DNA from: Acidimicrobiia bacterium
Lineage (GTDB): Bacteria > Actinomycetota > Acidimicrobiia > Acidimicrobiales > SZUA-35
Direction: 5' to 3'
DNA length: 10,616 nt
NCBI GenBank assembly: GCA_029857855.1
Contig: JAOUGG010000043.1
Coordinates: 1-10,616, forward strand
Part shown: one piece after another, positions 123 to 10,275 of the stretch
Numbering within the stretch: position 1 is the stretch's first letter
How the letters are laid out: each line of letters opens with the position of its first letter
Notes under the pieces: model-generated
The model's input: the letters and a program-made list of their open reading frames with translations, nothing else
What the model was told of the DNA's origin: nothing
Databases searched by the model: none
Made by a program: the position numbers and the translations under genes

Positions 123-1319
123 ATGTACACTCTTGCCCCGGTCAGCAACGCTGCCATCCCTCGTGATGGTGACGCCCGCAGCTTCGGGATCCTCTCGACC
201 TTTCCCCCGACCGAGTGCGGGATCGCCACCTTTTCCGCCGCGCTGGCGGCCGGGCTGATCGCCAACGGAGCCACCGTCGACGTCGTTCGCTGCGGCGCCC
301 CGTATCCGGTTGAGTATCCGGTTGAGGATGTATCGGTGCTCGGCGCCCTCGCCGCACCGGAGTCCAGCGATTTCCAGGCACCGCTCGACGTGCTGAACGG
401 CACCGACGTGGCCATCGTTCAACACGAGTACGGTCTCTACGGCGGGCTCGACGGCGACGAGATCCTCAACACGATCATCGGCATCGAGGTCCCGGTGATC
501 GTCGTCGCCCACACGGTGCTCAGCGCGCCCACGACCAATCAGCGGTGGATACTCGAAGAACTCTGCAAACGAGCAGACGCCGTCGTGGTGATGACCGAGA
601 CGGCCAGGATCAGACTCACCGCGTACTTCGACGTCGACGCCTCGAAGGTGATCGTCATTCCCCACGGAGCGGCAACACCCCCGGGAGCAGCGCCAACTCC
701 TGAAGCGGATTTGAAGGACCGCGTCCCACGACTGTTGACGTGGGGCCTTCTCGGCCCGGGCAAGGGCATCGAGTGGGCCATCGACGCCATGGCCGATCTC
801 TCCGACCTTCGACCGCGGCCCCAGTACACGGTCGCCGGAGCGACCCATCCCAAGGTCCTCGCACGCTCTGGTCAGGCCTACCGCAACATGTTGGTCCAAC
901 GGGCTGCATCATCGGCTGCGGCGGCGCAGGTGTCGTTTGACGACACCTACCGAGACCTCGCATCGCTCACCGAACTGATTCGTGCCGCCGATCTGGTCGT
1001 GCTCCCTTACGACTCGACCGACCAGGTCACCTCCGGCGTCCTGGTTGATGCGGTGGCCGCTGGTCGACCTGTCGTCTCCACCGCGTTCCCACACGCCGTC
1101 GAGCTCCTGGGGAGCGGAGCCGGTTTGGTGGTCCCGCAGCGCGACACCGCCGCGCTGGCCGCAGCGATCCGTTCGGTCCTCAGCGACCATGGTCTGGCCC
1201 AGTCGATGGCGGCCGAGGCTCGACGGCTGGCGCCCGACCTGGCCTGGACGGCGGTTGCGGCTCGATACGGCGATCTGGCACGGCGCCTTCTCGCCCGACG
1301 TCAGCCGGTCCAGCGATGA
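123..1319 (+). CDS. GT4-type glycosyltransferase
   Basis: This 398-residue protein looks like a cytosolic, GT-B fold retaining glycosyltransferase that moves a sugar from a nucleotide-sugar donor to a glycan or lipid acceptor. The N-terminal Rossmann domain opens with FGILSTFPPTECGIATF (residues 21-37), the usual GT4 'PP..GG/CGIA' start, followed by VQHEYGLYGG (99-108) and the IPHGA hinge (179-183). The C-terminal donor domain has TWGLLGPGKGIEWAI (206-220) and the LPYDSTDQVTSGVLVDAVAAGRPVVS region (294-319), a variant of the GT4 EX7E donor site in which the first acidic position is not a clear Glu. The ATG at 123 has GGAG at 112-115. The gene overlaps the next by ATGA, implying translational coupling. 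An exact in-frame 12-bp duplication encodes YPVEYPVE (61-68). Donor and acceptor cannot be read from sequence; mannose is guessed from the GH130 neighbour. Family assignment is firm. Confidence 0.9.
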   Translation: MYTLAPVSNAAIPRDGDARSFGILSTFPPTECGIATFSAALAAGLIANGATVDVVRCGAPYPVEYPVEDVSVLGALAAPESSDFQAPLDVLNGTDVAIVQHEYGLYGGLDGDEILNTIIGIEVPVIVVAHTVLSAPTTNQRWILEELCKRADAVVVMTETARIRLTAYFDVDASKVIVIPHGAATPPGAAPTPEADLKDRVPRLLTWGLLGPGKGIEWAIDAMADLSDLRPRPQYTVAGATHPKVLARSGQAYRNMLVQRAASSAAAAQVSFDDTYRDLASLTELIRAADLVVLPYDSTDQVTSGVLVDAVAAGRPVVSTAFPHAVELLGSGAGLVVPQRDTAALAAAIRSVLSDHGLAQSMAAEARRLAPDLAWTAVAARYGDLARRLLARRQPVQR

Positions 1320-2326
1320 GCGGGCCGTCGTTCGACCACCTCGTCGCCCTGAGCAGCAACGTCGGGCTCTTCGAACATGCCGAGTTCGTCGCCCCGCGTC
1401 GTGAGCACGGGTACTGCACCGACGACGTGGCGCGGCTCCTCGTCGTGGTCGCCCGCGAACCGACACCGACCCGGGCGGTCCGTGACCTGGGCCGAATGGC
1501 CTTGGCCTTCCTCGCCGATGCCCAGGGGGTCGACGGCAAGATCCGGAACCGTCGCACCGCCGACGGTCGCTGGCACGGACCCCGCACGGTCGAAGACTGC
1601 TGGGGACGCAGTATCTGGGCCTTCGGTACCGCAGCCTCGCACGCACCCGAAGCGTGGATGCGCCAGAGCGCAGCGGCCCACTTCGACCACGGCGCCCAAC
1701 AGCGATCCCCCTGGCCTCGATCGATGGCCTTCGCAGCGCTCGGCGCCGCTGAGATGCTGGCCGCCGACCCCTCCCATCACCGCGCCCGATTGATGTTGCT
1801 GGACGCGGCGGCCACCATCGGATCACCGTCACAGGAGCCTGACTGGCTCTGGCCGGAACCACGGCTCACCTATGCCAACGCCGCGCTCGCCGACGCCCTC
1901 ATCGTTGCGGGAAACGTGCTGGGGCGCTCCGATACCGTCGGCGACGGTCTCGCGATGCTGCGGTGGCTTCTTCGTCGAGAGACGATTGATGCCCACTACT
2001 CACCGACGCCCGTCGGTGGGTCCGATCGGGGTGACTCGGCGCCCGCATTCGATCAGCAGCCGATCGAGGCGGCGGCAATGGCCGATGCCTGCCACCACGC
2101 CTACGCCGTGACGGGCGATGGCGAATGGATGAACGGCCTCGACGTGGCGATCCGATGGTTCGCAGGCGACAACGACGCGGGGGCACAGATGTGGGACCCG
2201 GCAACCGGCGGCGGCTACGACGGCTTGCATGCGTCAGGCCCCAATCTCAACCAGGGGGCCGAATCAACACTTGCGCTCGTCTCCACGCTTCAGCACGCCC
2301 ACAAGCTCACCATGGCCGGCTTGTGA
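1316..2326 (+). CDS. Alpha/alpha-toroid (six-hairpin) glycosidase-like protein
   Basis: This 336-residue, largely helical protein resembles the toroidal glycosidase-like proteins encoded beside GT4 and GH130 genes in actinobacteria and other phyla. Visible conserved blocks are HGYCTDDVAR (31-40), VEDCWGRSIWAFG (92-104), LTYANAALADALI (184-196), FDQQPIEAAAMADACHHAY (245-263) and MWDPATGGGYDGLH with NQGAESTLA (292-305, 312-320). The paired acidic residues (D36/D37, E93/D94), aromatic residues and His are typical of an (alpha/alpha)6 barrel active site. There is no signal peptide or membrane segment, so it should be cytosolic. The start overlaps the stop of the glycosyltransferase gene by 4 bp, so the two are probably made in equimolar amounts and may act together. 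Whether it hydrolyses, phosphorolyses or only binds a glycan is unknown. Confidence is high that it is a gene, moderate for the fold. Confidence 0.8.
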   Translation: MSGPSFDHLVALSSNVGLFEHAEFVAPRREHGYCTDDVARLLVVVAREPTPTRAVRDLGRMALAFLADAQGVDGKIRNRRTADGRWHGPRTVEDCWGRSIWAFGTAASHAPEAWMRQSAAAHFDHGAQQRSPWPRSMAFAALGAAEMLAADPSHHRARLMLLDAAATIGSPSQEPDWLWPEPRLTYANAALADALIVAGNVLGRSDTVGDGLAMLRWLLRRETIDAHYSPTPVGGSDRGDSAPAFDQQPIEAAAMADACHHAYAVTGDGEWMNGLDVAIRWFAGDNDAGAQMWDPATGGGYDGLHASGPNLNQGAESTLALVSTLQHAHKLTMAGL

Positions 2327-2382: not shown

Positions 2383-3858
2383 CTAGGTGCCAGTCAGGCG
2401 ACTGAGGAGCTGATCGAGCGGCACGGTGGCAATGGCGGCGCCGACGTCGGCAAAACCGTAGGGTAGAACGAGGTGGTCGCCGACCACCATGCTGCCGCAG
2501 GAATAGACGACGTTCGGTACATAGCCCTCTCGTTCATCGGCCTGCGGCGACAGGAGCGGTTCTTTCAGGTGTCCAATCACCCGACACGGATCGTCCAGAT
2601 CCAACAGCATCGCGCCGAGGCTGTATCGACGCAGCGGACCGACCCCGTGGGTGATGACCAGCCAACCTTCATCGGTCTCGATCGGTGATCCGCAGTTTCC
2701 CAGTTGAACGAACTCCCATGGCCGTTTCGGCTCCTGGATCATCTGTGCTTCAGGCCAGACACGGACGTCGGCCGATCGCATCACGAAGTTATTGACGTTG
2801 TCGTGACGTCCCAAGGCCACGAACTGGCCGTCCAGCATCCTCGGGAACAGGGCGATGCCCTTGTTCCTGGCACGCGGCCCGCTCAGCGTGGCGATCCTGA
2901 ATCGCAGGAAGTCGGTCGTCTCGAGGAGCTGAGGCAGAATCTGGTGCCCGTCGAACGCGGTGTAGGTCCCGTAGTAGACGACACTTCCATTGTCATGAAC
3001 GAACCTGACCAGCCTCACGTCCTCCATGCCGTGGCTCTCGGTTGGCCCAGCCGGAAAGATCACCCGTTCCGAGATGTCGCTGCCTTGACGAAAGTCGATG
3101 TAATAGTTCGACGAGGCAAGCCAATGCAGAATGTGACTGGTTTCCGTTGACACGATGCAGTCGGCACCCCCTGCATCGAGCCCGCCAAGAGCCGTCTCGA
3201 GCTCGCTCATCGTGAATCGGGAGCCAAGCGACGCAAGCACGCAGTGCGCAATGTCGTTCAACGCTCCCAGCTCGCTCATTTTCGTGACGAAGAAGCCCTT
3301 GTCGTAGTCGGCTCCCTCCCTCCGACCTGTTTCGGCGTAACGGGTTGTGGCGTCGAGGCTGATGCCGAGATCTTGATCGATCACACCGCATCGGAACTCG
3401 ATCGAGGAGATATGACCCTCTCCGACGGCGCGCAGACTCATGATGAACCGGGTCTCACCGGCTCCCAGGTTCGATTGATCAGGAGCCACGACCATCGATG
3501 GATTGCCGAGCGCCGCCGCCTCGATCGAATATTCATGCGTGCAGTAGGCCCCGATCAGGAGCTGCCGCTCCGGAGAGAGGTGATCCGGGAGCGTCACGCG
3601 ATCAGCCACAATCTCGAGGTGCCGGCGGAGCACCGCATCGAAGTCTCGATGGCGGCCAACGAACTCCTCCGAGACCTCTCGAAGCGTTTCACCGACCAAC
3701 GCTTCGTCCATTCCCAGGATTCGACCGACGATGGCCTCGAGGCGTGTTCGTCCGTCGGACGGCACCTGCTCGCCGGGCAGGAAGGCTTTCGTGATCACTC
3801 GACCGGGGTCGGGCATCAACCGCACGTCGAGGGAGCGACTGACCGGGAGAACACTCAT
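2383..3858 (-). CDS. GH130-family mannoside phosphorylase/glycosidase-like protein
   Basis: This 491-residue protein has the five-bladed propeller signatures of GH130, whose members phosphorolyse, hydrolyse or (reverse reaction) build beta-mannosides. Key blocks are ESHGMEDVRLVRF (274-286), in which D280 matches the family's EDPR catalytic aspartate; NKGIALFPRML and FVALGRHD (332-342, 346-353); GNCGSPIETDEGWLVITHGVG (387-407); YSLGAMLLDLDDP (412-424); and GYVPNVVYSCG (445-455). About 250 residues precede the EDVR block, longer than simple GH130 enzymes; the first 100 residues are helical and acidic and may mediate oligomerisation or partner contacts. The frame stays open upstream to 4173, but I choose the ATG at 3858 because GAGGAGA (3866-3872) lies 7 nt before it and the extra 105 residues are low-complexity and arginine-rich. 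The gene is convergent with the glycosyltransferase pair, 56 bp apart. It is predicted to be cytosolic. Confidence 0.9.
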   Translation of the reverse strand: MSVLPVSRSLDVRLMPDPGRVITKAFLPGEQVPSDGRTRLEAIVGRILGMDEALVGETLREVSEEFVGRHRDFDAVLRRHLEIVADRVTLPDHLSPERQLLIGAYCTHEYSIEAAALGNPSMVVAPDQSNLGAGETRFIMSLRAVGEGHISSIEFRCGVIDQDLGISLDATTRYAETGRREGADYDKGFFVTKMSELGALNDIAHCVLASLGSRFTMSELETALGGLDAGGADCIVSTETSHILHWLASSNYYIDFRQGSDISERVIFPAGPTESHGMEDVRLVRFVHDNGSVVYYGTYTAFDGHQILPQLLETTDFLRFRIATLSGPRARNKGIALFPRMLDGQFVALGRHDNVNNFVMRSADVRVWPEAQMIQEPKRPWEFVQLGNCGSPIETDEGWLVITHGVGPLRRYSLGAMLLDLDDPCRVIGHLKEPLLSPQADEREGYVPNVVYSCGSMVVGDHLVLPYGFADVGAAIATVPLDQLLSRLTGT

Positions 3859-3865
3859 GAGCGGA

Positions 3866-3872
3866 TCTCCTC
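3866..3872 (-). promoter_or_regulatory. Ribosome binding site fixing the GH130 start
   Basis: GAGGAGA on the minus strand is a near-perfect Shine-Dalgarno sequence placed 7 nt upstream of the ATG at 3858. It favours a 491-residue product over the 105-residue longer open frame beginning at 4173. Confidence 0.8.
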
Positions 3873-4036
3873 GGTTCAGTAGATGTCGGTGATCAACCGG
3901 TGTTGCTGTTCTAGCCGAACTGTACCGTGCCGCAGCCACGCCCGTGCCATGCACATTGTCAGAGCCGACGTTCCGGCTGTGACCAATCGAAGGGCCAAAG
4001 TCCCTGGTCCGCGAGATCCGACGGGTCGCATACTTG

Positions 4037-4056
4037 ATCGAGCTGAATCGAGCTGA
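4037..4056 (+). repeat. Perfect tandem 10-bp repeat upstream of the avidin-like gene
   Basis: Two adjacent identical copies of ATCGAGCTGA end 11 nt before the start codon. The second copy overlaps the beginning of the purine-rich ribosome binding region. It could be an operator for a dimeric regulator or a recent slippage duplication; sequence alone cannot decide. Confidence 0.7.
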
Positions 4057-4067
4057 GAGGAAGCCAT

Positions 4068-4481
4068 ATGTTCCCAACCCCCAAACTGCAAGCCGCCGCA
4101 CAGACCAACGAGCGACAACGCGTGCCGGCTTCGGCGCTGGCCGGCCGGTGGCGGAATCGACTCGGCTCGACAATGGTGTTGGAAGTCGACGATCACCATC
4201 GGATCCACGGCACGTTTCACACCGGCGCCGAGATCGGGGATCCTCGGGCCGGCTACGAGATCGTCGGATTCGCGGAAGGCGATGACTTCGCGTTCTGCGT
4301 CGACTTCGGCCGCTGGGGTTCGGTGGCCTCCTGGACAGGTCATCACGTCACCGGCGAGGACCACGGCGAACGACTGGTCACGGTCTGGCATCTGGCCCAA
4401 CCGGTCGAGGACCCGCACAGTGAGATCGACACCTGGCGCGCGATCCTGACCGGTGGCGACGAGTTCCAGCGCATCGACTAG
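4068..4481 (+). CDS. Avidin/streptavidin-family biotin-binding-like protein
   Basis: This 137-residue protein matches the avidin family through its whole beta-barrel. Against streptavidin I align GRWRNRLGST (26-35) with GTWYNQLGST, GTFHTG (48-53) with GTYESA, FAFCVDF (74-80) with the GWTVAW strand, SVASWTGHHV (85-94) with SATTWSGQYV, LVTVWHLA (103-110) with INTQWLLT, and DTWRAILTGGDEF (121-133) with NAWKSTLVGHDTF. Biotin ligands retained are N30 (N23), S34 (S27), S85 (S88), W89 (W92), W107 (W108), W123 (W120, given by the neighbouring subunit) and D131 (D128). Changes are Y43 to F50, S45 to T52 (as in avidin), W79 to F80 and T90 to A87, and the loop between strands 5 and 6 is about four residues shorter. 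Unlike secreted avidin and streptavidin there is no signal peptide: residues 1-22 are polar. The ATG is preceded by AGAGGAAG. Biotin binding is likely but perhaps weaker; function in the cell is unknown. Confidence 0.88.
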   Translation: MFPTPKLQAAAQTNERQRVPASALAGRWRNRLGSTMVLEVDDHHRIHGTFHTGAEIGDPRAGYEIVGFAEGDDFAFCVDFGRWGSVASWTGHHVTGEDHGERLVTVWHLAQPVEDPHSEIDTWRAILTGGDEFQRID

Positions 4482-4494
4482 TCGAGGACCGCGT

Positions 4495-4507
4495 CGACCC
4501 CGGGTCG
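4495..4507 (+). terminator. Weak hairpin after the avidin-like gene
   Basis: CGACC (4495-4499) and GGTCG (4503-4507) can pair around a three-base loop, 14 nt after the stop codon. There is no following T tract, so it is at most a weak or factor-assisted terminator. Confidence 0.2.
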
Positions 4508-4609
4508 GTGGCATCGTGATCCGGCTGTAGGGCCGATGCCCACTACGATGGAGGACGAGTCGCCGCACCGGCCGGCGGCCCGCAAGGCGAACAGAAACAG
4601 GTGTGGCCA

Positions 4610-5143
4610 ATGGAGCAGCCCTTCAACGAACAGCCGACCGGTGGAGCCAATCCCCCGCCGGGCTGGTATCCGGTCGACGGCGGTCAGACCCGGTACTGGG
4701 ACGGCGAGGCGTGGACCGATCAGATCACCCCCGCCCCGCCAGGCGACGGATCCGCCGGCACGGGCACGCTCGACTCGATCGGCGGGCAGGTGACGGCGGC
4801 GGTCTCGTCGACCAACGAGAATCAGATGGCCATGTTCGCCCATCTCGGGCAGCTTGCCGGGCTGATCTCGGGCGTCGGCGGGTTCGTCGTGCCGCTGATC
4901 ATCTTGGTGACCAAAGGCAACGAGTCGCCGTTCGTGCGCCGGGCCGCAGTGGAGTCGTTGAACTTCTGGATCACCGGATTCCTGGCCAGCATCGTGGCCT
5001 TCGTGCTCGTGTTCGTGCTGATCGGCTTCCTTCTTCTGCCTCTGGTGGCACTGATCTGGCTGATCCTTCCCATCTACGCGGGAATCAAGGCCAACGAGGG
5101 TGTCGACTACCGCTACCCGTTCAACCTCCGGCTGATCAAGTAA
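4610..5143 (+). CDS. DUF2510 and DUF4870 membrane protein
   Basis: This 177-residue protein joins two common domains. Near the N-terminus, PPPGWYPVDGGQTRYWDGEAWTDQ (15-38) is a DUF2510 motif, a short Trp-rich module usually cytoplasmic in actinobacterial membrane proteins. After a Gly/Ser/Thr linker, residues 73-172 form a DUF4870-type domain: MAMFAHLGQLAGLISGVGGFVVPLIIL, the charged KGNESPFVRRAAVESLNF stretch, then two hydrophobic helices (about 121-140 and 142-158) and the YAGIKANEGVDYRYPF ending typical of the family. About three membrane helices are predicted. An in-frame GTG at 4601 would add three residues; I prefer the ATG at 4610 because AGGTG (4599-4603) is well spaced for it. The molecular role of DUF4870 proteins is not established. 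It appears to be a stand-alone gene. Confidence 0.85.
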   Translation: MEQPFNEQPTGGANPPPGWYPVDGGQTRYWDGEAWTDQITPAPPGDGSAGTGTLDSIGGQVTAAVSSTNENQMAMFAHLGQLAGLISGVGGFVVPLIILVTKGNESPFVRRAAVESLNFWITGFLASIVAFVLVFVLIGFLLLPLVALIWLILPIYAGIKANEGVDYRYPFNLRLIK

Positions 5144-5278: not shown

Positions 5279-6121
5279 GTGAGACCTTGGTTCTCTGTCC
5301 TCGCGGTGATCGTGACGCTGGTGTCCGGCTGTGCCACCCAGCAGGTGGAGTCCGACACCGCTGCCGGCGACAGTGTCACCGTCACATCCGTCGAGACGGC
5401 CACAGATGGACAGCCGACGACGTCGGACGCCTCTGTGTCGGCCTGCACCCCGGCTCCGAACTCGACATCGACTTCTGCGCCAACCACGTCGACCGAAACG
5501 ACGGCCATCAGCTCGTCTTCGAGCGAACCGACCACGACCGCCGCCTCAACCACGACGGAAACGTCAGCGACGCCACCCACGGATCCGGTGTTGGCCGCCC
5601 AGCAGCAGCGGCTGGCTGAACTCGGCTACTGGCTCGGGCCGGTCGACGGTCGGTTCGGGTCGCTGACCGCTCACGCCGTCACGGCGTTCCAGAAGGCCGA
5701 GGGGCTACCCCGAACCGGTGAACTCGACGCCGCGACCAACGACCGGCTGGCCGTCGCGACCACGCCGGTAGCGCGCAGCGGCGGCGGCACGGTGCTCGAG
5801 ATCGATCTGAGCCACCAGATTCTGCTTATTGCCGTCGACGGGGTCGTCACCCGGATCTACGACATCGCAACCGGCGCAGCGGCCACGCCGACGCCAGCGG
5901 GTCGGTTCGAGATCTACAACCAGATCGACGGTTTCCGCCACGCCCCGCTCGGCACCCTCTATCGACCCAAGTACTTCAACGGAGGCATCGCCCTCCACGG
6001 CTACACATCGGTGCCGGCCGAGCCGGCCTCGCACGGCTGTGTTCGCCTGACCTACCCGGCGATGGACGACCTCTGGGCCAGCGGTGCCGCCCCGATCGGC
6101 GCTCCGGTGTGGGTTTATTGA
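5279..6121 (+). CDS. Lipoprotein L,D-transpeptidase with peptidoglycan-binding domain
   Basis: This 280-residue enzyme probably forms 3-3 cross-links in peptidoglycan, or attaches proteins to it, outside the membrane. Residues 1-18 are a lipoprotein signal peptide ending in the lipobox VSGC, with C18 as the lipidated residue. Residues 19-102 are a Ser/Thr/Glu-rich linker, about 80 residues, that would span the wall and may be glycosylated. Residues 104-157 (QQQRLAELGYWLGPVDGRFG...AVTAFQKAEGLPRTGELD) are a PG_binding_1 domain. Residues 171-280 are the YkuD catalytic domain with ALHGY (H240) and SHGCVRLT (S251-T258; catalytic C254, with H252). The predicted start is the GTG at 5279, which places the charged residue, hydrophobic core and lipobox correctly; no strong ribosome binding site is visible, so a leaderless transcript is possible. 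The catalytic domain ends exactly at the C-terminus, as usual. Domain calls are firm; the specific cross-link is inferred. Confidence 0.92.
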   Translation: MRPWFSVLAVIVTLVSGCATQQVESDTAAGDSVTVTSVETATDGQPTTSDASVSACTPAPNSTSTSAPTTSTETTAISSSSSEPTTTAASTTTETSATPPTDPVLAAQQQRLAELGYWLGPVDGRFGSLTAHAVTAFQKAEGLPRTGELDAATNDRLAVATTPVARSGGGTVLEIDLSHQILLIAVDGVVTRIYDIATGAAATPTPAGRFEIYNQIDGFRHAPLGTLYRPKYFNGGIALHGYTSVPAEPASHGCVRLTYPAMDDLWASGAAPIGAPVWVY

Positions 6122-6234: not shown

Positions 6235-7986
6235 ATGGCCAAGCGACGGAACTCTGGTGGGGGGCGGATCACTCCCCGAGGAACGCGGCCGAGGAACTGG
6301 ACCGGAACCGCTGGTGCGTCGCCCGACGGAACGGGTCCAGCCGGCGTCGGCATGCCTCGGCGGCTGCGCCGAGCACCGGCGGTGTTCGACATCCTTCTTG
6401 CCGTCTCCAGTACGGCCGAGGCGATCACGCCGGTCGATCGCTTCACCGGCGCTCCCGACCTGACCCAACTTCCGGCGGCGGTGATCAGCGAGCTCGGCAA
6501 AGGCGACGACGACACCGAGGCGCTCACCCTCATCGCTCAACTGCTGCACAACGACGACTTGGCGGCGCAGGTGAGGCGGCGGCGCCCGCCGGGTGAAGCG
6601 ATCCAGGCCATCATCGACGCCCTGCGCGGCGCCCGGATCGACAAGGCGCTCGAGATCCGTGAGCCCTACGACGAGCAGCGCCAGTATGTGGTGGCCGCTC
6701 GACTGGCCAACGGCGAAGAGGTTTCGGCGATCATCCGCGCCGAGGTGTACGGGTCCCTCTGCCTGGCCGATGCGTTCGCCGCTCCCGTCACCGCCGACAA
6801 CGTTCTCCGACTCGCATTCGACGAGCCCGAGCTACGCGTCACGGATGCCCCGCCCGCCGACATCCGCCGCGATCTCGACGGGGCTCTCTACTCCGCCTTT
6901 CACACGGTGCCGCCTCCGGTGACCGACACCTGGCCAAACCATGCCCTGCTGGTGCAGTGGATACTGGGACTCCTGCCGCAGCCAAGCCCCGAGCCCGCCT
7001 GGGAGCCGATCAGCGACAAGGCGTCGAACCGCTTCGTCAACCAGTTTCTGGACTCGGAGGAGCGACGGCGCATCCGCGCCACCGACGACGAGGTCGCATC
7101 GATCGTGTCGTCGCTCATCTGGTACAAGGACGGCTACACCAACGGTGATCTGTATCGCTGGGGTCCCAACCAGGTCGGGATCCTGCTGTCGGACTGGGCG
7201 CTGCGCAAGCTGATCGTCCCCGAGGACGAACTGCGCCGTCTGCCCCTCATCCTCCGGGGCCTCATCCCGTGGGCCCACCGTCATCTCGACGACCTCGCTT
7301 CGTATCACACCGATGAGGTCCTGTCTGCCGTGGACTACTACGAGCCGACTTTTGTCGCCGGTCTCGTGGCCGATCGCAGCCGGGGCATCGATGCGCTTCT
7401 CGACGCCGCCGCCCCCTACTTCGGCTTCGAGTACGGCGCATCCACCGGTCTGAGTGACGAGGACTACGAACGTTGGGATGCCTCTCGGCGTGCCGCCGCG
7501 GTGGGCGGCCATGATGTCCTCGAAACGCTGACGGCCGACCCGCTTCCGGCACCCCCCGAGGACACCGATCTCTCCTCTGTCGACGAGCCGTACCGGTCGC
7601 TGGTCGACTACGTGTCCGGAAGGGCGGCGGCCGTCGCGGCCGACCTGTACGGACCCGAGTACGGCACGGCGGCCTCCCGGCTGGCGGTCGCCATCGGCGA
7701 GGCCGATGGTTCCGTTCTCGCCCGAGGCAAACCCGATTCGGCCGTGGCCAGCATCGTGTGGATGACGGCAGCCGCCAACCGGGACCCGTACTGGATCGTT
7801 CAGCGCGACATCAAGGAAGCCTGTGGCACGAAGGTCGGCCCCAAGGAGCGGGCCCGCACCTTCACCGGAGTCCTTGGCGGCGAGTTCGACGAGTTCAGCC
7901 ACATCATTCTCGGTTCACCCGAGTTCCTCGTGAGTGGCCGCCGGCAGGAGCTGATCGACGAGCATCGTTCCAACGGCGCGAGCTGA
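6235..7986 (+). CDS. Conserved actinobacterial protein with DUF6398-like C-terminus
   Basis: This 583-residue protein has no function I can name. The first 45 residues are basic and rich in Gly, Pro and Arg (RRNSGGGRITPRGTRPRN, 4-21), like a disordered nucleic-acid-binding tail. The middle is mostly helical; WGPNQVGILLSDWALRKLIVPEDELRRLPLILRGLIPWAHR (309-349) resembles the 'WSPVAVE.FLLDWLPRK' block that I associate with large uncharacterised actinobacterial proteins. Residues 450-570, containing SVLARGKPDSAVASIVWMTAAANR (493-516) and CGTKVGPKERARTFTGVL (530-547), look like DUF6398: a helical domain with a 'rGkp..wA.aivy...N' core followed by a helix-turn-helix-like segment. No membrane segment or signal peptide is seen, so it should be cytosolic. 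AGGAG at 6224-6228 supports the ATG at 6235. It is convergent with the WD40 gene, 11 bp apart. The gene is certain; the domain match is from memory of the family pattern. Confidence 0.8.
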   Translation: MAKRRNSGGGRITPRGTRPRNWTGTAGASPDGTGPAGVGMPRRLRRAPAVFDILLAVSSTAEAITPVDRFTGAPDLTQLPAAVISELGKGDDDTEALTLIAQLLHNDDLAAQVRRRRPPGEAIQAIIDALRGARIDKALEIREPYDEQRQYVVAARLANGEEVSAIIRAEVYGSLCLADAFAAPVTADNVLRLAFDEPELRVTDAPPADIRRDLDGALYSAFHTVPPPVTDTWPNHALLVQWILGLLPQPSPEPAWEPISDKASNRFVNQFLDSEERRRIRATDDEVASIVSSLIWYKDGYTNGDLYRWGPNQVGILLSDWALRKLIVPEDELRRLPLILRGLIPWAHRHLDDLASYHTDEVLSAVDYYEPTFVAGLVADRSRGIDALLDAAAPYFGFEYGASTGLSDEDYERWDASRRAAAVGGHDVLETLTADPLPAPPEDTDLSSVDEPYRSLVDYVSGRAAAVAADLYGPEYGTAASRLAVAIGEADGSVLARGKPDSAVASIVWMTAAANRDPYWIVQRDIKEACGTKVGPKERARTFTGVLGGEFDEFSHIILGSPEFLVSGRRQELIDEHRSNGAS

Positions 7987-8002
7987 GGGCTCGCATCTCA
8001 GC
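7982..8002. terminator. Possible shared hairpin between convergent genes
   Basis: GCTGAG (7982-7987) and CTCAGC (7997-8002) are a 6-bp inverted repeat with a 9-nt loop that embraces the stop codons of both convergent genes. It might serve both transcripts, but the stem is short and no T tracts flank it. Confidence 0.25.
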
Positions 8003-9800
8003 AGCCGACCATCTCCCAACTGATCGCCACGAAGCCCTGCCCGGAACTCGACGGCCGAACCACCACCAGGAACAGTGCCTCCTCCACCGGTTGGCTGCCC
8101 ACCGGCAGCACCGGATCGAGCGGCGCCGCATAGTTGATCGAACCATCCGGCGTATCGATACGGACGAGGAGCTCCTTCCATCCCATTCCGTTGTCCGGAA
8201 TCGAGGCCAGAACATGGTCGAGCGCGGCGTCGGGGGTGGGGAAGGCGGTGGGCTCGAGGTCGGACTCGCCATCGTTGGGCGGGTAGTCCGGTGGCCCGGT
8301 CTCGCAATCGACCACGATGGGGGCACGGTCAGCGGTCAGGACGGGAATGTCGACCGCGCCGGACGACTCGCCGTCGGTTCCGGAGCCGTCGACGGTATCG
8401 GCGGATTCAGCGGCCGATCCAGGGTCGGCCACGGTGCCCGAGGGCACCGATCCGGAGCCGCCGACGTTCCAGATGCGAACGGTCGTGTCGGAGCTGCCCG
8501 AGGCCAGCCGGCCGTCCGGGAGGACGGCCACGGCGTTGACGGCAGCGGTGTGTTGATCGAGCATGACGGGGTCCCGGGTCGGCCCGCCGAGGTCCCAGAT
8601 CCGGACGATGCCGTCGGCGCCGCCGGACGCCAGCCGCCGGTCTGGGAGCTCGACCAGCGTATGGACGGCGCCGGCGTGCGCATCGATGAGCTCCGGCGAC
8701 GAAACCGGTTGGACGGGATCCCAGATCCGGATACCGCCGTTCGAGTCAGCCGACGCCACGCGGCCATCGGCGAGGACGGCAAGGACCGTTATCGCACCGG
8801 CGTGGCCGACCGATATCGGAGACTGCTCATCTTCGACGCCCGTCGTGGGGTCCCAGATCCGGATGGTTCCGTCGCTCCCGCCACTCACGAACCTTCCGTC
8901 GGGCAGCCCGGCAACGGTCAGAACGGTTCCGGTGTGGGCGGTCTTGATCCGGATGCCGTCGTCGCCGACCGGCTCGATCGTGACGAGCCCGTTGGTTCCG
9001 CCGACCGCCAGGTCACCGCCGGGAAGCATCGTGACCTTCGACATCGGCGCAACATCGCGCGTGAGGTGGCTCCCCCGCAGACCCACACCGGATCCGGGGT
9101 CGATCTCCTCGATAACCATCGAGTCGACGAAGGAGCTTGCCACCACCAGACCACCGGACGGAAGCCGCCCGAGACTCGTCACCGACCACGGTTGTCCGCC
9201 GACGTCGAACGATTCCTGCAGGCGAACCTCGGACGGTCCGTCGTCGGGCGCATCGGGATCCCAGAACTGGATCGTGTTGCCTTCGCCGGCCACGGCCAGG
9301 GTTCCGTCGTCGAGCGCCAGGAGGGCAAGAACGCCGAAGTCCGCATCAAGGGTGACGACCGATGGCGCTTGCTCGGCAGGGGTCAGGACCGTGGTCGAAC
9401 CGATCGGCCCGGCGGACGTCGAGGTGCCCGCCGGCTCCCCCTCGACCCCGACGAACCCAGGTCCGCTCGAATCGATCCGATCCGCATCACCGAGATCCCG
9501 CACAAATCCGAGCACGGCGAGGAACCCGGCAACAAGGGCGACGGCCGCCGCAGCCCACGCAACCCAGGACGATCGTCGAACGCCGTGATCGCCGGATCGA
9601 ATCCGATGGCGGGCCAGCTCGATGACCTCGCCGGCGTCGAGGGGTTTTTCCTCCTCGGTGGCGGCCAATTCGACGATCACCGGCTCGAACTCGAAGTCCT
9701 GCCGTTCGACCCGGCCCATCACCTCGTCGAGCGTGATCGGTTGCATGTCCGCCGAAACCCTGCGGATCAGGACGTCGAGCTCGCGACGACGTTCAGCCAT
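7998..9800 (-). CDS. Single-pass membrane protein with seven WD40-like blades, putative anti-sigma/sensor
   Basis: This 600-residue protein is the likely partner of the sigma factor encoded just upstream. Residues 1-77 are cytoplasmic, charged and helical (MAERRRELDVLIRRVSAD..), followed by one membrane helix at 79-100 after R76/R77, giving an N-in, C-out topology. Residues 145-447 contain seven WD40-like units, the last four canonical: GTIRIWDP (311-318), GGIRIWDP (355-362), GIVRIWDL (397-404) and TTVRIWNV (439-446), each preceded by an LPDGR/ASGG-type strand; the first three are degenerate. An acidic Ser/Gly linker (448-490) leads to a C-terminal domain (494-600) with two cysteines, C499 and the final residue C600, possibly a disulfide. 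The HxxxCxxC zinc motif of classical anti-sigma factors is absent. The start overlaps the sigma gene by 8 bp, with GGAGGTGA (9807-9814) 6 nt before the ATG. The anti-sigma role is inferred from position and architecture. Confidence 0.88.
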   Translation of the reverse strand: MAERRRELDVLIRRVSADMQPITLDEVMGRVERQDFEFEPVIVELAATEEEKPLDAGEVIELARHRIRSGDHGVRRSSWVAWAAAAVALVAGFLAVLGFVRDLGDADRIDSSGPGFVGVEGEPAGTSTSAGPIGSTTVLTPAEQAPSVVTLDADFGVLALLALDDGTLAVAGEGNTIQFWDPDAPDDGPSEVRLQESFDVGGQPWSVTSLGRLPSGGLVVASSFVDSMVIEEIDPGSGVGLRGSHLTRDVAPMSKVTMLPGGDLAVGGTNGLVTIEPVGDDGIRIKTAHTGTVLTVAGLPDGRFVSGGSDGTIRIWDPTTGVEDEQSPISVGHAGAITVLAVLADGRVASADSNGGIRIWDPVQPVSSPELIDAHAGAVHTLVELPDRRLASGGADGIVRIWDLGGPTRDPVMLDQHTAAVNAVAVLPDGRLASGSSDTTVRIWNVGGSGSVPSGTVADPGSAAESADTVDGSGTDGESSGAVDIPVLTADRAPIVVDCETGPPDYPPNDGESDLEPTAFPTPDAALDHVLASIPDNGMGWKELLVRIDTPDGSINYAAPLDPVLPVGSQPVEEALFLVVVRPSSSGQGFVAISWEMVGC

Positions 9801-10275
9801 CGACGTTCACCTCCAGACCGACCCGCAGCGCCGCAAGGCCCCGACGTACGTGCGTGGCGATCGTCGAGATCGAGCAGCCCAGCAGTTCGGCGACCTCCCG
9901 ATGCCGGTAGCCCAGTCCGTGGACCAGCCACACCGACACCCGCTGCTGTTCCGGCAGGCCCGACAACAAACTCCTGAGTTGGGGTTCGAACTCGGGAACC
10001 TCGCAGCCGGCGGAGGCCCCGTTCGAGGCTCCGCCGGCTGGTCCCTCCCGGGCGATCGCCTTCAACGCTCTCGACTGGCCGACCCGGTAGAGGTAGCCGG
10101 CCGGATTGTCCATCGCCCGCAGTCGATCCCAGTTCCGCCAGCCCCAGGCGAGAGCGTCGGCTGCGGCGTCACGCCCGATGTGATACCCGAACGCGGCAAC
10201 GAGCGACAGCCGCAAACGCTGCTCGACGTCGGCGAAAAACGCCGCGAACTCGTCCTCCGTGGAAGTATCCACCAC
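9793..10275 (-). CDS. ECF-type RNA polymerase sigma factor
   Basis: This 160-residue protein has the two-domain layout of extracytoplasmic-function sigma factors, which redirect RNA polymerase to a small regulon. Region 2 covers about residues 15-70, including GRDAAADALAWGWRNWDRLRAMDNPAGYLYRVGQSRA (34-70), the usual 'A.D..Qe.f...w......nP.aWL..ia.n' pattern. A short Gly/Ala/Ser-rich linker follows (76-96). Region 4 is 97-155: LRSLLSGLPEQQRVSVWLVHGLGYRHREVAELLGCSISTIATHVRRGLAALR, with the -35-binding helix-turn-helix near 124-146. It is shorter than the typical 170-200 residues, because the linker and N-terminus are compact. The start is GTG at 10275 (or the adjacent GTG at 10272); GGGAG lies 9 nt upstream of the former. 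It is co-transcribed and probably translationally coupled with the WD40 membrane protein that overlaps its end. I see no recognisable autoregulatory promoter motif upstream. Confidence 0.92.
   Translation of the reverse strand: MVDTSTEDEFAAFFADVEQRLRLSLVAAFGYHIGRDAAADALAWGWRNWDRLRAMDNPAGYLYRVGQSRALKAIAREGPAGGASNGASAGCEVPEFEPQLRSLLSGLPEQQRVSVWLVHGLGYRHREVAELLGCSISTIATHVRRGLAALRVGLEVNVDG

Follow-up and report, generated by a model that had tools for sequence, protein, structure and literature searches.

What bacterial avidins do in nature has not been settled; secreted defence is the usual answer. According to a 2021 survey, the known eukaryotic avidins are secreted and a signal peptide is predicted in about half of the putative bacterial ones (PMC8033661). 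Vargas-Lagunas et al. have studied rhizavidin in Rhizobium etli, which is a biotin auxotroph. They found that a rhizavidin mutant halted growth earlier on subculture, that supplying the gene or biotin restored growth, and that polyhydroxybutyrate was six times higher in the second subculture (2022, PMC8914248). A study of leaf bacteria cites this result and leaves biotin storage in auxotrophs open (PMC9666465). Publications thus already exist both on avidins that lack a signal peptide and on an avidin that stores biotin. Here, we analyzed a stretch of 10,616 bases (the window) from the genome of an Acidimicrobiia bacterium, which carries an avidin-family gene with an altered biotin pocket. The reading that we favor, with a probability of about one in two, is that its product would serve as a cytoplasmic, releasable reserve of biotin.

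In the library that we searched, no paper combined streptavidin, Y43F and biotin, and no paper combined avidin, Acidimicrobiia and biotin-binding. A conserved clade of avidins to which the standard secretion route is closed, in bacteria that look dependent on external biotin, would make the storage idea directly testable beyond rhizobia. In addition, reversible biotin binders could usefully be derived from a pocket in which W79F and Y43F occur naturally.

Family Assignment and Cellular Location

The genome that carries the window comprises 4.39 Mb in 978 contigs and is 81% complete; the window is its contig C375. A first-pass annotation of the window had proposed an avidin homologue with the eight-stranded barrel, and both points were confirmed. 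In a hidden Markov model search, the PF01382 profile was matched from position 2 to 115/116 (59 bits, cut-off 24, E value = 7.4 × 10−16), and the AlphaFold model of the monomer is an eight-stranded avidin barrel with a predicted local distance difference test (pLDDT) score of 89.9. Membership of the 137-residue protein in the avidin family is therefore near certain. This open reading frame (ORF) is the sole PF01382 match in the 81% complete assembly.

A first homologue search returned 68 proteins including the window protein itself (P0001), with E values up to 2.5 × 10−27 and lengths mostly of 135–138 residues. PF01382 was matched by all 68 of them after alignment. Their N-terminal consensus is MFLETILxDA; the window protein begins with MFPTPKLQAAA, and a similar segment is present in most homologues. 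Compared with the closest locus (L009), the gene had a nonsynonymous distance (dN) of 0.094 and a synonymous distance (dS) of 0.603. Purine runs similar to the GAGG of the window precede the ATG in L009 and L014. No Rfam family exceeded its gathering score and no tRNA was found in the window, and no promoter or terminator was found by consensus within positions 3840–4640.

The first-pass annotation had also stated that the protein lacks a secretion signal, and this holds for the window. The in-frame TGA (Table 1) limits any N-terminal extension to seven residues (IELRGSH), so an alternative upstream start that encodes a signal peptide is excluded. The best 10-residue hydropathy mean at the N-terminus was 0.52, whereas the lipoprotein encoded nearby at 5279–6121 reached 2.92; the check was a hydropathy heuristic, not SignalP, with this lipoprotein as its single positive control. 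In-frame stops also lie shortly before the conserved ATG at four other loci, at a distance of 3 codons in L007 and L013 and of 12 codons in L008 and L012. The frame is open further 5' in the remaining relatives of the same avidin type, where the start was assigned by conservation. Among 128 retrieved proteins the hydropathy mean was above 1.6 in only four (P0038, 2.24; P0050, 1.79; P0043, 1.70; P0126, 1.65). P0038 has an N-terminal extension of 55 residues, which is possibly a start-site error, and a signal peptide remains possible there. Taken for the clade avidin as found in the window, a cytoplasmic location is highly probable. However, the accompanying statement that known avidins are secreted was too strong, because a signal peptide is predicted for only about 50% of the putative bacterial avidins, and the contrast drawn with them was overstated.

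Conservation and Change in the Biotin Pocket

The contacts of streptavidin with biotin include N23, S27, Y43, S45, N49, S88, T90 and D128 as well as W79, W92, W108 and W120 (PMC8776744, PMC12105034). Residue equivalences were taken from a MAFFT alignment to streptavidin. The clade counts refer to 129 rows, namely 127 retrieved proteins together with L002 and L024, the latter being identical to P0093; the fragment P0059, streptavidin, xenavidin, rhizavidin and two further avidins of the class (L021 and L022) were left out.

The residue map of the first-pass annotation agreed with this alignment, both in its replacements (F50 for Y43, F80 for W79 and A87 for T90) and in all the residues listed as kept. 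The shortening of a loop was found as well, and in fact two loops are shorter: 6 residues instead of 10 across streptavidin 79–88, and 10 instead of 18 across streptavidin 58–75. As for the claim of a remodelled pocket, the substitutions are real but the remodelling is mild, with the N23, S27 and D128 sites near-invariant. The ureido set is kept or conservatively changed in N30, S34, T52 and D131, and it departs from streptavidin in the change of Y43 to F50. At the site of T52, which corresponds to S45, threonine (87 rows) or serine (22 rows) is found in 109 of the 129 rows, alanine in 14 and other residues in 6. At the D128 site, xenavidin has the asparagine that is also present in 27 clade rows. 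All four tryptophan positions of the pocket (79, 92, 108 and 120) are aromatic in the window protein (F80, W89, W107 and W123), with tryptophan at three of the four. W89 is conserved in 128/129 rows, with one gap, and W107 in 127/129, with one tyrosine and one gap; the neighbouring L110 site has leucine in 128/129 and one gap. The equivalent of N49 could not be aligned reliably (D, N, H, S and others across the rows).

We then followed the changes on a rapidly built tree with 133 rows, for which P0059 and the partial rhizavidin sequence were left out and sites 43, 79 and 90 were removed from the alignment. Site 43 switched between tyrosine and phenylalanine at least 14 times, and site 90 changed at least 8 times; these are rough minimums, because 54 of the 129 inner branches had support below 80. 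The repeated alternation at site 43 implies that Y43F is no specificity switch.

This pattern, read from the alignment, says that the ureido core is held and that the Tyr43 hydroxyl is dispensable. It fits a retained ligand of the biotin type, perhaps less tightly bound. A computed energy analysis of monomeric streptavidin assigned 9% of pocket stability to Trp79 and 5% to Thr90 (PMC12105034). Some biotin binding by the window protein is probable, and we infer that it would be weaker than in streptavidin but real.

It might instead be supposed that the pocket has left biotin for another small cyclic ligand, such as a peptide, a degradation product of biotin or some other compound of the ureido or imidazolidone kind. 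The three contact changes, the family-specific C77, D79, H92, H93 and H108 and the shortened loops speak for this supposition, and the first-pass annotation had named another ligand as one option. However, the sites of N23, S27, S88, W92, W108 and D128 (D or N) are near-invariant, the S45 site is mostly conservative as given above, and the coming and going of Y43 would be unexpected under a new specificity. We consider a different ligand unlikely, and Y43F as a sign of one is not supported.

The two class avidins outside the counts were considered separately. L021 (genome G101) has Y43, W79 and T90, and an in-frame stop lies just before its barrel, which leaves no room for a signal peptide. 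The missing signal is therefore not tied to the altered pocket. L022 (genome G421) has leucine at site 43 together with W79 and T90, and bioB is present in its genome. Its start is uncertain: there is a candidate ATG just before the barrel, but the frame is open for about 48 codons further.

Biotin Economy of the Carrier Genomes

The avidin type of the window was found in nine surveyed genomes (G000, G002, G003, G007, G012, G023, G034, G276 and G383), and three other genomes (G004, G101 and G421) carry different avidins. The survey of the biotin pathway covered bioB, bioD and bioA. None of the nine had bioB over the cut-off, with only weak matches (<50 bits against 225); among the other three, it passed in G421 but not in G004 or G101. 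No bioD exceeded the cut-off in the 12 avidin carriers, where the single sub-threshold match was in G421 and all nine window-type carriers were unmatched. BioA exceeded the cut-off in one of the 12, again G421; the matches below it may be other aminotransferases or divergent BioA. In contrast to this, biotin ligase was over the cut-off in 12/12. The carriers, which are environmental bacteria, thus appear unable to make biotin. The first-pass annotation had named a biotin precursor as a possible ligand, and this became less likely, given carriers in which neither bioB nor bioD was detected and bioA fell below its cut-off (bioF lay outside the survey).

The background of bioB has to be taken into account. 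It was found in 23 of 61 relatives, with an additional partial gene below the cut-off in G060, and in 111 of 395 class genomes, while 284/395 had none over the cut-off. Carriers of any avidin lacked bioB more often than other genomes among the relatives (0/8 versus 23/53, p-value = 0.02), and the counts within the genus were 0/5 versus 4/7 (p-value = 0.08), although these statistics, like those given below, ignore the relatedness among genomes. Because most class genomes are also without bioB, the association between the avidin and missing biotin synthesis is only suggestive.

If biotin is not synthesized, if biotin ligase needs it and if the avidin is kept inside, then the avidin must release its biotin or it would starve the cell. 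The conserved losses in the pocket likewise point to release. In the mechanism that we propose, an eight-stranded barrel, probably oligomeric, would be kept in the cytoplasm of bacteria apparently unable to make biotin. It would bind biotin or a very close form (desthiobiotin or biotinyl-lysine) more weakly and more reversibly than streptavidin does. Scavenged biotin would be held inside as a reserve, on which biotin ligase would draw. Biotin as the ligand, the reduced affinity, the oligomer, the auxotrophy and the storage role are each steps that we infer. Storage or weak binding, which the first-pass annotation had listed among its options, is accordingly kept here as a candidate role.

Several observations weigh against such a reserve. 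Six of the nine carriers are metagenome-assembled genomes that are 81–93% complete, and only three reach 96–99%. The strict cut-offs were passed by just 7 (bioB), 6 (bioD) and 6 (bioA) of 14 control genomes, so that absence means that no standard enzyme was detected. The best bioA matches in the nine carriers scored 227–313 bits against a cut-off of 405, and a divergent BioA is possible. The contrast in bioB had a p-value of 0.08 within the family (0/8 carriers versus 10/29 others) and disappeared in the class sample (1/5 versus 110/390, p-value = 1.0). With bioB in 111/395 class genomes, 0/9 would be expected about 5% of the time even under independence of the genomes, an assumption that does not hold here. 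The biotin importer BioY was found in 6 of 61 relatives, and in 0/7 window-type carriers among them; of the eight avidin carriers there, only G004 has it, and the avidin of G004 has Y43. No biotin-related Pfam domain was found in 19 neighbour proteins from ten loci or in any neighbour in the window. Finally, the 2021 survey states that biotin is bound less well when small hydrophobic residues take the place of hydrogen-bonding ones, and that biotin binding is not reliably judged from sequence (PMC8033661). T90A belongs to this kind of substitution.

Defence has also to be weighed, since avidins are commonly proposed to act in this way. An avidin without a signal peptide could be freed by lysis and starve competitors or grazers of biotin, and about half of the putative bacterial avidins are without a predicted signal peptide (PMC8033661). 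However, defence would favor the tightest binding, yet F79 is found in 129/129 rows and T90 in only 25/129. Moreover, the carriers apparently cannot make biotin, and a tight internal binder would starve its own maker. A defensive role is improbable on these grounds.

Clade Signature and Distribution

Beyond the pocket, the clade is marked by cysteine at the T76 site (97/129), aspartate or asparagine at A78 (122/129), histidine at Q95 (94/129), histidine at Y96 (113/129) and histidine at L109 (128/129). A long branch (1.64, support 95), which carries a long-branch warning, connects it with streptavidin, xenavidin, L021 and L022. A second homologue search found 212 proteins, of which the best 120 were available for the counts; hence the clade is larger than the counts given. 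A remoter member, P0127, has the name Candidatus Azotimanducaceae, which is gammaproteobacterial.

Avidin matches were found in 8 of 61 relatives, 8 of 39 family genomes and 5 of 395 class genomes, with the window's genome counted, and in 1 of 396 genomes of the phylum sample, which was the window's own. These low counts show that the distribution is sporadic.

We take W120 of streptavidin (W123 in the window) to reach the site of the neighbouring subunit. Its conservation in the clade hints at a tetramer. The T76 and L109 sites (C77 and H108 in the window) presumably face outward at subunit contacts, and the strand register of the model suggests that C77 and H108 lie in the same row on the outer face. 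A metal site at the subunit interface formed by these two residues was considered, and it was kept only as a lead from the predicted register. In a wider reading, the proteins would form a distinct and broadly distributed class of avidins in the cytoplasm, signal-less and marked by F79, H109 and usually C76 and D78, whose bearers would be Acidimicrobiia together with one or more lineages of Gammaproteobacteria. They would store biotin inside the cell and have their own means of release, perhaps set by cysteine and histidine at the places of subunit contact in streptavidin, through which redox state, pH or a metal would govern when biotin passes to biotin ligase. This wider reading is quite improbable.

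Genomic Neighbourhood

The features of the locus are summarized in Table 1.

Table 1. Coordinates of the avidin gene, its pocket residues and other genes in the window.
Feature	Position	Strand	Basis or clade count
GT4 glycosyltransferase, adjoining the GH130 gene	123–1319	+	
336-residue protein, adjoining the GH130 gene	1316–2326	+	no Pfam match
GH130-type mannoside phosphorylase homologue	2383–3858	−	mechanical ORF extends across the avidin start to 4173; likely ATG 3858
TGA stop, in frame, 7 codons 5' of ATG	4044–4046	+	sequence
Shine-Dalgarno-like GAGG, 7 bases 5' of ATG	4057–4060	+	read directly in sequence
Avidin-family coding sequence, 137 residues, no predicted signal peptide	4068–4481	+	ATG 4068, TAG 4479–4481
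Predicted N-terminal helix, residues 5–11	4080–4100	+	low-confidence model (mean pLDDT 53, residues 1–10)
Predicted eight-stranded avidin barrel, residues 24–133	4137–4466	+	PF01382 match and structure prediction
N30 = streptavidin N23, biotin contact kept	4155–4157	+	N 124, S 5 of 129 rows
S34 = streptavidin S27, biotin contact kept	4167–4169	+	S 129/129
F50 = streptavidin Y43, OH contact lost	4215–4217	+	F 87, Y 41, L 1 of 129
F80 = streptavidin W79	4305–4307	+	F 129/129
S85 = streptavidin S88, biotin contact kept	4320–4322	+	S 128, A 1 of 129
A87 = streptavidin T90, biotin sulfur contact	4326–4328	+	A 90, T 25, G 12, S 2 of 129
H108 = streptavidin L109, clade signature	4389–4391	+	H 128/129, 1 gap
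W123 = streptavidin W120	4434–4436	+	W 116/129
D131 = streptavidin D128, biotin contact kept	4458–4460	+	D 101, N 27, 1 gap of 129
583-residue protein	6235–7986	+	no Pfam match over cut-off, no NCBIfam match
Sigma-70 region 4 protein (160 residues), 3' end overlapping the start of a 600-residue WD40-repeat protein	7998–10275	−	

The GH130 gene is divergent from the avidin gene, and a DUF2510/DUF4870 protein and a YkuD lipoprotein lie downstream. The GH130 gene, the GT4 gene and the 336-residue protein are possibly a mannoside cluster; the sigma-70 region 4 and WD40-repeat genes are likely a sigma factor/beta-propeller pair.

An all-against-all comparison covered the neighbours in the window and at ten other loci. 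A conserved operon was rejected, since only L009 shares whole neighbour proteins with the window, namely the DUF2510/DUF4870 protein and the YkuD lipoprotein, an L,D-transpeptidase, in a different order. In L009 (region 6910–9009) the L,D-transpeptidase gene precedes the avidin gene, whereas in the window it follows, and the locus has accordingly been rearranged around the avidin gene. L011 has only a DUF2510 stretch of 36 residues in common with the window. Four neighbours are common to L016 and L017, and L010 and L014 share one (76% identity) several kb away; beyond these pairs, there were a few weak pairs of general families. The Pfam functions of the 19 neighbour proteins are unrelated (gyrase, ABC transporter, thioesterase, CobW, luciferase-like, etc.). 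The simple gene caller missed the avidin ORF in L010, L012, L016 and L017 and chose a longer start in L009, L011, L014 and L015; the comparison is therefore coarse, and missed genes went unseen.

A biotin-responsive regulator or chaperone, whose biotin-bound form would contact biotin ligase, a carboxylase or some other partner, would suit the cytoplasmic location and the conserved N-terminal segment and surface residues that the barrel does not need, but it is very improbable, as neighbours are shared by close pairs only and none by the whole set, and Pfam found no DNA-binding or further domain in the protein.

An origin from a phage or plasmid was rejected. The search for viral relatives gave 27 pattern stretches, of which none was confirmed, and no phage match; the sole plasmid match was distant. 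It is an avidin-like stretch with 36% identity to the window protein on a conjugative plasmid of Rhizobium gallicum (NZ_CP092345.1, 53760–54098), without an annotated gene in a plasmid gene table that is incomplete.

Comparison with Known Avidins

The main text of the 2021 survey contains no word starting with Acidimicrobi or Ilumatobacter; its supplementary sequences were outside this search, and overlap with them is possible (PMC8033661). The window protein resembles about half of the putative bacterial avidins covered there in having no predicted signal peptide.

Xenavidin, from the frog, is its best sequence match in the PDB (E value = 9.4 × 10−9). Xenavidin shares threonine at the S45 site with the window protein, but it keeps Y43, W79 and T90. 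Rhizavidin, judged from a partial sequence, also keeps these three residues and is dimeric, whereas the window protein retains the W120 equivalent, as streptavidin does. Streptavidin of Streptomyces avidinii has the same fold and the same residues at N23, S27, S88, W92, W108, W120 and D128, and the identity to the window protein is 25% over the structural alignment with 1mk5. The window protein scored 38.9 bits against the NCBI streptavidin equivalog NF047623, below its cut-off of 300 bits. Streptavidin is secreted, whereas the window protein has no signal peptide, and relative to streptavidin it has Y43, W79 and T90 replaced and two loops shortened.
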